Assembly (NCBI GenBank): GCA_900316245.1
Contig: ONCE01000002.1
Coordinates: 1 to 64,000 of the forward strand
Reading direction: 5' to 3'
DNA: 64,000 nucleotides
DNA from: an uncultured Bacteroidales bacterium
GTDB taxonomy: Bacteria; Bacteroidota; Bacteroidia; Bacteroidales; UBA932
Part shown: piece after piece, positions 100 to 44,047 of the stretch
How the letters are laid out: each line of letters opens with the position of its first letter
How positions within the stretch are numbered: position 1 is the stretch's first letter
The notes under the pieces: generated by a model
The model's database searches: none
What the model was told of the DNA's origin: nothing
What the model saw: only the letters and a program-made list of their open reading frames with translations
Translations under genes and position numbers: made by a program

Positions 100-287
100 T
101 ATCAAATAAATTCCTGTTTATCGGTCTCTTTGGTTCTTTGGTCTGAAAGAAAAAAGTGACCAAAAGTGACCAAATTTGGTGAATAGAAAAATTAAAGACT
201 TTGTAAGTGCTTGAAAATGAATTTCGGAGGCCGAAGGCCGACCCAGGGGGTCTGGGGGATTAGGCCCCCAGTCTATCGAAGATATTA
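100..287. other. Non-coding spacer with small repeats
   Basis: No credible gene is seen between the HxlR tail and the tRNA terminator. The stretch contains a short direct repeat (aagtgaccaaaagtgacc, about 155-172) and a hairpin at 252-271 (CTGGGGG / CCCCCAG around a 6-nt loop). Short open frames here overlap the tRNA or its terminator and do not look like protein. Confidence 0.5.
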
Positions 288-327
288 GGCACAAAAAGAG
301 CTGCGATGTCGCAGCTCTTTTTGTGCC
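288..327 (-). terminator. Intrinsic terminator of tRNA-Leu
   Basis: A 40-nt near-perfect inverted repeat: ggcacaaaaagagctgcga and tcgcagctctttttgtgcc. On the minus strand it follows the tRNA 3' end directly and ends in a U run. Its outermost bases are the last nucleotides of the tRNA acceptor, so the hairpin overlaps the mature 3' end. The symmetry would also allow it to stop transcription from the other side. Confidence 0.85.
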
Positions 328-374
328 TCGGGCGGGAATCGAACCCGCACGGCCGTTTCGGGCCAAGGGATTTT

Positions 375-758
375 CGTACCACTATGGCTTTCGCCACCAT
401 CTCTGTTTGTGGTCTGGACTATTCCTTCACCGTGGGGCGGGGCCCTTTAGGTGTGTCGTGTCTAGTCTCTGCACCTTCCTCTTTTCAGAGGCTTGGCTCA
501 AGATTGCCATCGGCCTTACCCGCTATGGTTTCCTTGAATTTACGACATTCTACATCTCTCTTTTCAGAGAGTGCACTCAAATTGCCACGTTGACAAATAG
601 AAACATCTCCAGGGCCGATTTTGTGTCGAGGCGGCAGCAAAATCGAAGGAAAAGGGCTTTTCCTTTGCCACGTTGACAAGAAAAAGGCCACGTAGGCCAT
701 TCTGCTTGTCGAGGCGGCGATAACCCTCGGTGTTTTCCGTTTGTCAAAGAGCTCGCAT
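375..758 (-). ncRNA. Group I intron (IC3-like) in tRNA-Leu(UAA)
   Basis: The 384-nt insert carries the conserved group I core in order on the minus strand: a CAAGGAAACC element, ggcaatcttgagccaagcc (508-490, P4/P5 region), ggtgcagagact (475-464, P3/P7), aatagtcc (423-416, P7 3' strand), a GCGAAAGC tetraloop hairpin (P9), and a terminal G at 375. These match, from memory, the Anabaena tRNA-Leu intron. P1 can form between exon GGGACUU and GAGCUCU just inside the intron, with U.G at the splice site. No homing endonuclease ORF is present. It should self-splice using guanosine. Two extra 52-nt hairpins sit between P1 and the core. Confidence 0.9.
584..718 (-). repeat. Tandem duplicated hairpin inside the group I intron
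   Basis: Two 52-nt units (718-667 and 635-584) begin with GCCGCCTCGACA and end with TTGTCAACGTGGC on the minus strand, so each folds into a hairpin with the same stem. Loops differ in sequence but total length is identical. They are separated by a 31-nt spacer that contains its own small hairpin (aaggaaaagcccttttcctt). Their position between P1 and P3 suggests an expanded P2 domain. Confidence 0.75.
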
Positions 759-820
759 AAGTCCCTCGTGTCTACCATTCCACCACCAAGGCAAAATGTG
801 GGAATACAAAGATAAGGAAT

Positions 821-1651
821 TTACAGCTTTTCTGCAAAACGGGCTACGCGGGGGCTGCCCAGCAGGCGCACCAGGGCGTCCCACCAGCGGGTGGGGAGGA
901 CGGCGTGCCAGAAAACGATGTTGGAGGCCCCCATTCCCGGGCGGTAGCGGGTGCGGGGACGCTTAGCGGTGGCGGCTTTCACGATAGCGCGCGTTACCAC
1001 AGAGGGGGCCGACAGCACCTGCATCGAGTAGATCTTGTGCATGGCGGCGGCCTCGTTGGCGGCGGCCTGTTCGTAGGCGGTTCCGGCGGTGCAGGAGGCC
1101 AGGTGGTCGGCCGCAATGTGACCCCACTCTGTGCGGATGGAGCCGGGCTCGATGAGCACCACCTTCACGCCGAAGGGCTTCATCTCAATGCGCAGGGCAT
1201 CGCTGAAGGCCTCTACGGAAAACTTGGACACGTTGTACCAGCCGCCAAAGTTGAGGACGGCCTTGCCTGCCACGGAACTGATGTTGATGATTCGGCCGTT
1301 TCCGCGTTCCCGCATACCGGGAAGCACCAGCTGGCAAAGCCGGGCCAGGCCGAAAAGATTCACCTCCAGCTGCCTTCTGGCTTCCTCCATCGGAACGGTT
1401 TCAATGGGGCCGAAGTATCCGTAGCCGGCATTGTTTACCAGCACGTCGATGGGTCCCACGGCGGCCACGCAGGCCTGCATCGATTCTTCGGAGGTGACGT
1501 CCAGGGCGATGGGGATGACCCCATCGGCCTTTAACGGTTCCATCAGAGCCACGCGCCGCGCGGCGCCATATACTTGGTGCCCAAGTTGGGCAAGGGCCCG
1601 TGCGGTATCAAAACCGATTCCGCTACTGGCTCCAGTAACTAAAACTTTCAT
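821..1651 (-). CDS. Short-chain dehydrogenase/reductase (SDR)
   Basis: A 276-residue classical SDR. The Rossmann motif TGASSGIG is at residues 6-13, NNAG at 73-76, catalytic Ser in INISS near 125, and Tyr139/Lys143 in the YxxxK motif. An Arg pair after the second strand (AARR, 30-33) suggests NADPH preference, which is inference. The substrate is unknown; relatives include YusZ-like and retinol-dehydrogenase-like enzymes. It is the last gene of the mreB operon, 2 nt after the S41 protease, so it is probably co-transcribed. Nothing in the sequence ties it to cell shape. Confidence 0.85.
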   Translation of the reverse strand: MKVLVTGASSGIGFDTARALAQLGHQVYGAARRVALMEPLKADGVIPIALDVTSEESMQACVAAVGPIDVLVNNAGYGYFGPIETVPMEEARRQLEVNLFGLARLCQLVLPGMRERGNGRIINISSVAGKAVLNFGGWYNVSKFSVEAFSDALRIEMKPFGVKVVLIEPGSIRTEWGHIAADHLASCTAGTAYEQAAANEAAAMHKIYSMQVLSAPSVVTRAIVKAATAKRPRTRYRPGMGASNIVFWHAVLPTRWWDALVRLLGSPRVARFAEKL

Positions 1652-42620: not shown

Positions 42621-42675
42621 ACATATGTGGATAGATTTGGCTGCTTGCAACCACGTTAAAAAATGCTAAAATTAC
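42621..42675 (+). promoter_or_regulatory. SAM-II riboswitch
   Basis: P1 is ATGTGG (42625-42630) with CCACGT (42651-42656). The loop GATTTGGCTGCTTGCAA matches the SAM-II pattern GAUUU...UUGCAA, and the 3' strand TTAAAAAATGCTAAAA matches the conserved A-rich, GCUAAAA-containing strand of the pseudoknot. It lies upstream of metK (SAM synthetase), so product feedback is expected. Confidence 0.88.
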
Positions 42676-42697
42676 ATTTCATATCAGTGTTTTGTGT

Positions 42698-42733
42698 TTT
42701 TAGCCTCCGCATATGCTCGGGGCTAATTTTTTT
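42698..42733 (+). terminator. Riboswitch-linked terminator before metK
   Basis: TTAGCCTCCG (42700-42709) pairs with CGGGGCTAA (42718-42726) with one bulge, followed by seven T residues, 7 nt before the metK ATG. The 5' arm TTTTAGC (42698-42704) is exactly complementary to GCTAAAA (42665-42671) of the SAM-II 3' strand, which could act as antiterminator when SAM is scarce. Confidence 0.83.
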
Positions 42734-42739
42734 GTATCT

Positions 42740-44047
42740 ATGGTAAAGAATTATCTATTTACTAGTGAGTCGGTTAGCGAAGGTCACCCCGACAAAGTGG
42801 CAGACCAGATTTCCGATGCTATCCTGGACGAATTCCTGAAGCAGGACCCGGAGGCCAAAGTGGCCTGCGAGAGCTTCTGCTCCACCGGTATGGTGGTGGT
42901 GATGGGAGAGGTTAAGGCCGAAGCTTACGTAGATATCCAGAACACCGTCCGCAACACCATCCGCAAAATCGGATATACCAAGGCCGACTATATGTTTGAC
43001 GCCAGCAGCTGCGGCGTGCTGAGCGCGCTGCACGAGCAGAGCGCCGACATCAACCGCGGCGTAGAGCGCGCCACGGAAGAGGAGCAGGGCGCCGGCGACC
43101 AGGGTATGATGTTCGGTTACGCCTGCCAGGACACCGAGGATTATATGCCCCTCCCGCTGTATCTGAGCCACAAAGCCCTTGAGATTCTGGCCGATATCCG
43201 CCACAACGAACTGTCCCTGATGCCCTATCTGAGACCCGACGCCAAGAGCCAGTTCACCATCGAATATGACGGCGAGACCCACCAGCCGGTGAAGGTCCAC
43301 ACCATAGTCCTGAGCACCCAGCACGACGAGTTCGTGCCCGAGAGCCTGGGCAAGATGACCTATGAGGAAGCCGTGGCCCAGTACGGCCAGGCCAAGGTGG
43401 ACGAGGCTATGCAGAACAAGATCCGCCAGGATGTGGAGACCATCCTCATTCCCCGCCTGAAGGCCGAACTCCCGGAGCAGACGGCCGCGCTCATCCACGA
43501 CTATGTGCTGCACGTGAACCCCACGGGCAAGTTCGTGATTGGAGGCCCCCACGGCGATACCGGTCTTACAGGCCGAAAGATCATCGTAGACACCTACGGC
43601 GGCAAGGGTGCCCACGGCGGCGGAGCTTTCTCCGGAAAGGACCCGTCCAAGGTGGACCGCAGCGCCGCTTATGCCGCCCGTTATATTGCCAAGAACCTGG
43701 TGGCCGCCGGTGTGGCTTCCGAGTGCCTGGTCCAGCTGGCCTACGCCATCGGCGTGGCCCGGCCCGTGAGCGTTTTCGTAGATACTTACGGCACCGCAGC
43801 CAAGGGCCTGTCCGACGGTGAGATTGCCGCCAAGGTGCAGGAACTGTTTGACCTTCGGCCCGCCGCTATCATCAAAAAGTTCCAGCTCAAGAATCCCATT
43901 TATGCCCCCACGGCCGCCTATGGCCACATGGGCCGGAAGCCTTTCCAAAAGATGGTGAAGGTGCAGGGAAAAGAGAAAATTGTCCAATTCTTTGGCTGGG
44001 AACTGCTGGACAGCGTTCCTGCCATCCAAAAGGCTTTCAATCTTTAG
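42740..44047 (+). CDS. metK: S-adenosylmethionine synthetase
   Basis: 435 residues. [15 protein letters not shown] at the start, [33 protein letters not shown] and [12 protein letters not shown] are the MetK signatures. It makes SAM from Met and ATP. The ATG at 42740 ([12 protein letters not shown]) was chosen; an ATG at 42713 lies inside the terminator loop. The protein is slightly longer than the E. coli enzyme owing to a mid-protein insertion, which I recall as common in this phylum. Confidence 0.96.

Follow-up and report, generated by a model that had tools for sequence, protein, structure and literature searches.

A group I intron in the anticodon of a Bacteroidales tRNA-Leu(UAA) gene and its relatives in congeners and on phage contigs

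The 64,000-nt stretch of DNA analyzed here (hereafter, the window) carries a tRNA-Leu(UAA) gene with an insert that, judged from its sequence, was confirmed to be a group I intron. We consider it very likely that this intron belongs to a mobile family that was acquired more than once, probably through phages, and that the window copy is a decayed member of it. The genus is Candidatus Cryptobacteroides by one named record, JAGHSA010000006.1 (Candidatus Cryptobacteroides onthequi), in which the core and its flanks are identical, over the compared stretch, to a locus of congener G012.

The gene lies on the minus strand (792-324), where 384 nt are inserted between U34 and A35 of exons that join to 85 nt (Table 1). 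When CCA was added to the joined exons, ARAGORN folded them as tRNA-Leu(TAA). The exact coordinates and this fold bear out a preliminary description of the DNA, which had claimed a tRNA-Leu(UAA) with normal 85-nt exons and a 384-nt insert, and the insertion point and the Bacteroidales host that it had named are likewise correct. A promoter-like element, which we take to agree with the Bacteroides -33/-7 consensus, precedes the gene and a terminator-like hairpin follows it, so that tRNA-Leu(UAA) looks like a one-gene unit. Run by default, i.e., without introns, ARAGORN found no tRNA in the window, and a search of the whole window with Rfam at gathering thresholds missed the intron and returned a SAM-II riboswitch only. 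This riboswitch (42621-42679 on the (+) strand; 64 bits) lies 33 bases upstream of a frame (42713-44047) that, named from reading its translation, resembles S-adenosylmethionine synthetase MetK.

Table 1. Features of the interrupted tRNA-Leu(UAA) gene and its surroundings (positions in the window)
Feature	Position	Strand	Basis
Promoter-like TTTG-N20-TATCTTTG, upstream of the gene	807..838	-	Sequence
tRNA-Leu(UAA) 5' exon, 34 nt, last base U34 (...GAGGGACTT)	759..792	-	ARAGORN fold of exons
Group I intron, 384 nt, last base G	375..758	-	RF00028, 46.1 bits (608-394); R1, built with the window sequence included, 213.5 bits (407-580)
Loop L1, 178 nt, from 5' splice site to internal guide sequence; position of the HNH gene in congeners	581..758	-	
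Palindromic repeat unit 1, 52 bp, within L1	667..718	-	
Palindromic repeat unit 2, 52 bp, within L1, 83 bp from unit 1	584..635	-	
Internal guide sequence GAGU, predicted to pair with 5' exon ACUU (U.G at splice site), forming P1	575..578	-	Sequence
P2 hairpin, loop GAAA	551..574	-	10 pairs, 4 double-changed
P3 5' strand, partner 454-459	542..547	-	2 of 6 pairs double-changed, 100% paired
P4-P5-P6-P6a domain	473..537	-	P6a, 4 of 4 pairs double-changed; P4 and P6 invariant
P7 5' strand GACUA, partner UAGUC (417-421); expected guanosine-binding helix	463..467	-	Invariant in 15 of 15
P3 3' strand, partner 542-547	454..459	-	Covariation test
P8 hairpin	428..453	-	Helices 9 and 10, one double-changed pair each
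P7 3' strand; its TAG is the stop of the HNH frame in many HNH-bearing relatives	417..421	-	
P9 region, GGCGAAAGCC hairpin, terminal G	375..406	-	Sequence
tRNA-Leu(UAA) 3' exon, 51 nt, first base A35; CCA not encoded	324..374	-	Sequence, ARAGORN
Intrinsic-terminator-like hairpin, then T run, directly after the tRNA	285..325	-	-26.3 kcal/mol

Searched against positions 250-850 with an E-value threshold, the Rfam model RF00028 (Intron_gpI) matched the minus strand over its entire length (model 1-253 of 253) with an E-value of 1.4e-10. The score of 46.1 bits falls under the 50-bit gathering score, which 8 of the 15 congeneric RF00028 matches pass, and up to E 10 the window intron is the sole match to this model in its draft genome. 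For the covariation test, the 174-nt core was aligned from 15 congeneric introns, and we drew a structure of 46 pairs ourselves. Specifically, 98.7% of 690 cells were paired and 13 of the 46 pairs had changed on both sides among the 15 cores; none of 500 shuffles scored as high on pairing, double changes, or the covariation score, and the count of further pair types was unexceptional (491 of 500 shuffles as high). As a control, sliding the pairing partners by 1-3 columns left 37-42% paired. Core pair 52-75, which adjoins P5, is non-standard in 8 of the 15 cores. RNAalifold, run without the drawn structure, returned 45 pairs, 15 of them double-changed, and the folding energy of the entire gene is 4.35 sd lower than that of 100 shuffles. 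The preliminary description had claimed a group I core and had proposed a covariance-model match as a check; the match was found, below the curated cut-off, and the covariation over 15 cores stands beside it.

The pseudoknotted P7 and the P3-P8 core show the pair conservation expected of group I introns, with P4, P6, and P7 invariant in all 15 cores, so that covariation neither supports nor contradicts these three helices. The guide GAGU (578-575) is likewise invariant (15/15) and, reading by eye, would pair with ACUU of the 5' exon to form P1. As in group I introns, the last intron base is G, and the final U of the 5' exon would face a G of this guide (U.G) at the 5' splice site. Both L2 and the L9 of the window copy are GAAA.

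Next to these features of the window copy stands its distribution. RF00028 matched in 15 of 37 genomes of the genus and in none of 24 genomes from other families. The preliminary description had held that such an intron is not a standard feature of Bacteroidota; this needs amending, since the intron is no lone oddity but occurs patchily across the genus, with model R1 matching in 97 of 250 congeners (42 of 99 among the good-quality genomes) and in 30 of 394 other genomes of a phylum-wide sample. Among the 97 congeners, 73 scored at least 187 bits and 19 scored 57-103 bits, two matches lie at contig ends (140 and 112 bits), and three are weak or fragmentary (G240, G009, and G217). ARAGORN called an intron-bearing tRNA in 18 of the 19 genomes at 57-103 bits, and all 18 have the exons GGACTT / AAAATCC, i.e., the tRNA-Leu(UAA) site. 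Locations in tRNA-Ser, tRNA-Phe, and tRNA-Tyr, as given by the ARAGORN labels of 8 of these 18 divergent matches, were rejected, because the labels come from ambiguous intron edges and the exons read GGACTT/AAAATCC. On one contig of a congener (G231:C33; loci L085 and L086), there are three further weak matches: one intron whose host tRNA has a CAU-like anticodon loop, and two matches in a phage-like protein gene region.

Outside the genus, an order-wide sample had an R1 match in 2 of 392 other genomes, G493 (tRNA-Leu) and G503 (labelled tRNA-Ile(UAU)). The G503 locus (L062:1454-1740) holds a related intron, and its Ile(UAU) label would be an unusual anticodon for the group. For 19 phylum loci, repeats within one genus included, the ARAGORN labels were Leu(TAA) in 6, Arg(TCT) in 5, Ser in 3, Leu(CAA or CAG) in 4, and Gln in 1; to our reading, the Ser-labelled genes are tRNA-Leu(UAA), and two or more of the CAA- or CAG-labelled ones are CAU (Met-like) tRNAs. 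Introns of other families were seen in tRNA-Arg(UCU) and CAU-reading (Met-like) tRNAs (L414-L416, L420, L421 and L418, L419, L422), and several genomes of other phylum families have two introns each.

Empty sites in close relatives, as expected of a mobile intron, were found in 14 of 37 congeners, with all 14 genes running uninterrupted across GGGACTT/AAAATCCC (AAAATCC...). A further 18 congeners have the intron (15 by RF00028 and 3 more by R1 alone, namely G010, G021, and G009, the last as a 40-nt stretch at a contig end), 5 have neither, and none has both. An RpoB tree was built for 18 genomes (10 with the intron and 8 empty; 30 were sought, 19 matched, and the partial G027 was dropped); on it, intron presence requires 6 changes, compared with a mean of 6.2 in shuffles, 297 of 500 of which were as low. 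Strongly supported branches force at least 4 changes, and one sister pair (100/100) consists of an intron-bearing genome (G033) and an empty one (G017). Comparison thus shows that the intron is patchily present among congeners and does not cluster on the host tree.

We found the core pattern in 14 stretches of viral contigs. Five of them (L291, L292, L295, L296, and L298) have a tRNA-Leu(TAA) with an intron according to ARAGORN; by reading, L293 has both exons and L300 and L302 have one, L301 is a tRNA-Asn, and the rest lie outside tRNA genes. Stretches of several of these contigs are rich in tRNA genes, with up to 28 (L302). When the alignment of the HNH proteins discussed below was used as the query, encoded relatives turned up in at least 539 viral stretches, of which 80 were kept, several near-copies included. 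R1 matched in 44 of these 80 loci (36 had no match); 38 of 80 have both an R1 match and an ARAGORN tRNA-Leu(TAA) with an intron, and 32 of 80 have both exons by pattern. The 5' exon pattern matches in L295, L296, L300, and L347 are spurious, and ARAGORN calls a tRNA-Leu intron in L295, L296, and L347. The contigs, taken from IMG/VR, are predicted viruses, some of which may be host DNA. Two cyanobacterial-type patterns had no match each in the viral contigs.

The intron trees, which are unrooted (midpoint), cover 173-174 columns, and have long branches, place phage and chromosomal introns together. In a tree of 85 rows, a supported group (98/96) unites 28 type-A introns with 7 phage tRNA introns, and in a tree of 89 rows, which included other phylum families, 23 type-A and 7 phage tRNA introns are likewise grouped (100/97). 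The latter tree also joins type B with L064, L066, and the phage locus L313 (100/99) and places L065 and L067 together with L063 and phages (100/94). A single clade was rejected both for all Cryptobacteroides introns (AU p 3.7e-5) and for the phylum's chromosomal tRNA-Leu introns (AU p 2.5e-63), the AU groups having been named after the alignment was seen. These comparisons show that the introns of the genus fall into at least two lineages and are akin to phage introns. Type A as a single clade was not rejected (AU p 0.275), so that a nesting of phage introns within type A is unsupported; since the tree roots are midpoints, the direction of transfer is something we can only infer.

Phage introns are closer to Cryptobacteroides introns than are those of other phylum families, and the nearest relatives found outside the genus are, by sequence, tRNA-Leu(UAA) introns on phage contigs. 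Cyanobacteria, the comparison put forward in the preliminary description, are a valid one but not alone, given these phage relatives. Together with the HNH genes of several congeners, the closeness of the phage introns favors recent lateral movement over one ancient inherited intron, and it points to phages as a likely carrier. Descent from an ancient tRNA-Leu(UAA) intron, passed on vertically in Bacteroidota from an ancestor shared with the cyanobacterial/plastid intron and lost in most lineages, seems unlikely to us. It would account for the insertion site, the same as that in cyanobacteria and plastids, and for the tRNA-Leu(UAA) introns in other phylum families within the 30 of 394 genomes with an R1 match. 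Against it stand the mere 2 of 392 genomes in the order sample, the patchiness within the genus without host-tree clustering, the rejection of single clades at both levels, and phage introns that are closer than those of other families. Still less probable is a transfer straight from cyanobacteria or some other free-living bacterium with no phage involved, which the shared site and a presumed similarity in compact architecture (two GNRA loops and no P7.1/P7.2, as in the cyanobacterial and Azoarcus introns) would fit; among the introns compared, from Bacteroidota, phages, Omnitrophota, and archaea, the nearest relatives are phage introns, which weakens this reading.

A separate set of introns appears to cross domains. 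A closely similar core was seen in L125, L126, and L165, which have archaeal titles, and in L128, L131, L158, L167, L192, L199, and L200, which have Omnitrophota titles. These introns sit in an apparent tRNA-Asn(GUU), some with an HNH-like frame, and form one clade across two domains. In the tree, the tRNA-Asn-type introns of Omnitrophota and Pacearchaeota or Nanoarchaeota are a clade of their own (100/99); for the 10 loci of this set, ARAGORN called Asn in 5, other tRNAs in 4, and none in 1. The clade could reflect real transfer or a binning error. As far as the accessible part of Nawrocki 2018 (PMC6125680) extends, all 39 archaeal introns are in rRNA genes, and two IC3 hits are set aside.

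Loop L1 is taken as everything from the 5' splice site to the guide sequence. We surveyed 119 distinct introns out of 183 matches, some of the loci being among the 80 listed of 117 stretches. L1 is short (<40 nt) in 75 introns, holds a full HNH frame in 23 and a remnant in 6, and contains paired repeats in 4 (the window, L014, L091, and L113); 6 have other content, and 5 have no readable 5' exon. A wider search yielded 31 HNH frames of at least 140 residues. Type-A introns hold 25 of them and type-B introns 4; the other 2 are free-standing. The latter (L051:1848-2327 on the (+) strand and L066:880-1401 on the (−) strand) adjoin a tRNA-Leu(UAA) with a short intron. These two lack a ribozyme-encoded tail, and similar neighbors occur in phage loci, e.g., L334, L351, and L375.

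The HNH frames have weak matches to Pfam HNH/HNH_3 and match phrog_10822 over their own full length (E 2.5e-44 to 4.3e-47), a family of HNH endonucleases whose function is an annotation; the window copy lacks the gene. The HNH protein had no match in the plasmid collection, nor did the core, and the 2 chains matched among solved structures (E 0.49 and 0.55) are not meaningful. In type-A introns, the frame extends from L1 into the ribozyme, stopping at the P7 TAG in 13 of 25, in P6a in 9 of 25, and elsewhere in 3 of 25. Five phage loci (L293, L295, L296, L298, and L307) have a single frame of 279-291 codons that crosses the whole core and ends at the P7 TAG, the second half of the protein being encoded in L8; in the other 18 of 23 phage loci examined, the frame stops earlier or elsewhere. 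For the part outside the core, dN/dS had a median of 0.081 (range 0.047-0.214) and was below 1 in all 33 usable pairs, dS being computable in 33 of 300 pairs and saturated in the other 267. Comparison of the relatives thus shows a signature of purifying selection on the HNH gene.

The ends of L1 can pair with each other. Among 39 introns with an L1 of at least 50 nt, the pairing was matched in stability by none of 200 single-base shuffles in 29 and by at most 10 of 200 in 38. The ends of the window L1 can pair as well (-15.9 kcal/mol; 3 of 200 shuffles as stable). In L004 the pairing ends are kept with almost nothing between them, as expected if an HNH gene was lost between the ends. The window copy has no HNH gene, the longest open stretch in its L1 being 59 residues, and, without an endonuclease, it would be unable to home by its own enzyme. 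Its close sister G005 (100/100) has an intact HNH gene (L013) at the place of the window repeats, and the two cores are 97% identical, which suggests that the window HNH gene was lost, or exchanged, recently.

In place of the gene, the window L1 holds two 52-bp imperfect palindromes, 83 bp apart. The same pair, usually with the 83-bp spacing, occurs elsewhere in the genome (C15:84.0k, C16:80.7k, C32:25.3k, C33:63.5k, and C35:30.7k and 33.0k), and its 12-base palindrome end, with at most one mismatch, occurs 48 times, compared with 31 for the reversed control. The pair is, on this sequence evidence, an interspersed genomic element. It resembles paired palindromes of the REP/REPIN type in that its 52-bp imperfect palindromes stand in tandem pairs, 83 bp apart, at several sites of this genome; unlike that type, the window pair sits within a ribozyme loop.

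The draft genome, which is 92.8% complete, has 41 RF00005 matches, and its other four tRNA-Leu genes read CAA, TAG, GAG, and CAG. A second intact tRNA-Leu(UAA), with the interrupted copy silent, was one of the findings that the preliminary description had set against its own reading; a search of the draft genome for an uninterrupted tRNA-Leu(UAA) site with at most two mismatches found none. The interrupted gene is the only tRNA found for codon UUA in the draft genome; at this completeness, a hidden second copy is possible. Since no intact gene was found, the window copy presumably splices. That the insertion is dead, with a pseudogene that does not splice and UUA read in some other way, is highly improbable: the large L1 insertion, the low Rfam score, and the apparent rarity of UUA in the window (a crude count over all six frames, spurious ones included, gave 33 TTA in 27,658 codons) would suit it, but no other tRNA-Leu(UAA) was found, the exons fold as a normal tRNA, the core positions invariant among the 15 introns are kept, though by construction of the alignment, and the pairing of the L1 ends can hold P1.

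From these data we infer how a mobile intron of this kind would splice, cut, home, and travel with phages, including the direction of travel. In the pre-tRNA, the end of the 5' exon (ACUU) would pair with the guide GAGU as P1, a guanosine held in P7 would attack after U34, and the freed 5' exon would then attack after the terminal G, joining the 85-nt tRNA and releasing the intron. In relatives, the HNH endonuclease encoded in L1 would cut an intronless tRNA-Leu(UAA), and repair would copy the intron in. Where the HNH gene lies next door, homing may be helped by the neighbor, a scheme known as 'collaborative' homing. Phages with introns in tRNA-Leu(UAA), armed or with an adjoining HNH gene, probably ferry introns between hosts. 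The window copy would be a member that has lost its HNH gene; two genomic palindromic repeats fill its L1, which pairing of the ends would hold.

Among known systems, the closest by site is the cyanobacterial/plastid tRNA-Leu(UAA) intron, with which the window intron shares the host gene and the anticodon site; the U34/A35 insertion point is, we presume, that of the trnL intron. It differs in the L1 HNH gene of several relatives, the patchiness among congeners, and the phage copies. The introns of Azoarcus tRNA-Ile(CAU), Agrobacterium tRNA-Arg, and cyanobacterial tRNA-fMet are likewise short, compact group I introns in anticodon loops, in a different tRNA and at a different site; the endonuclease of the cyanobacterial fMet intron is not known to be of the HNH type. 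We assume a resemblance of the window intron to the Azoarcus intron in L2, L9, and the P7-P8 stretch, and to the IC3 subgroup (cyanobacterial and Azoarcus tRNA introns) more generally. The insertion in a tRNA anticodon loop is as in IC3. HNH-armed phage introns of the Twort-like, Bastille-like, and crAss-like kinds have a group I core and an HNH gene in common with the present family, and the window-type core aligns with Staphylococcus phage introns annotated Intron_gpI at ~78% identity (91 of 176 query bases; 51 records match). Those phage introns lie in protein genes, whereas the phage copies described here lie in tRNA-Leu(UAA).

The tRNA-Leu(UAA) group I intron is described from most cyanobacteria, the plastids of many algae, and all green plants in the part of PMC4476775 available to us, and the accessible text of PMC5733544 calls plastid introns immobile. 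In the available portion of the tRNAscan-SE 2.0 paper (PMC8450103), group I introns are hidden in tRNA-fMet or tRNA-Ile2 in 36 genomes. The accessible text of a 2014 review (PMC3984707) places all phage introns then known in protein genes, despite the many phage tRNAs, and the string 'Bacteroid' does not occur in it; the available part of PMC11878797 already notes that the nuclease gene and the ribozyme of phage introns can overlap. In the open-access journal articles searched, we found nothing on group I introns in Cryptobacteroides, no paper joining group I intron, tRNA-Leu, and Bacteroidetes, and none that we recognized as describing a phage tRNA-Leu intron. The window element belongs to the known group I tRNA introns, and the armed family shared by phages and hosts is unreported in the literature searched.

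A broader proposal, which we offer tentatively and consider possible rather than probable, is that tRNA-Leu(UAA) anticodon introns are primarily phage elements, that phages reseed host genes repeatedly, and that the cyanobacterial/plastid intron is an old, disarmed survivor. In phages with tRNA arrays, an HNH-armed intron would shield the phage's own tRNA-Leu(UAA) while the nuclease cuts unprotected copies, and Cryptobacteroides would display every stage: armed introns, loss of the HNH gene at the pairing ends of L1, and loops that are short or filled with repeats. Apart from this proposal, our preferred reading of a mobile intron carried by phages bears on several points. In such genomes, an essential tRNA gene escapes tRNA annotation run by default, and phage tRNA genes appear to host group I introns, which were unseen according to the 2014 review. 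The tRNA-Leu(UAA) intron of cyanobacteria and plastids is a textbook case for ancient versus laterally moved introns, and the same gene and site are involved here. The family is patchy, is armed with an endonuclease in at least some of its members, and occurs both in a genus abundant in rumen and gut and on phage contigs; since one sister species has the intron and the other an empty site, it may offer a living system for testing intron gain, arming, disarming, and loss.
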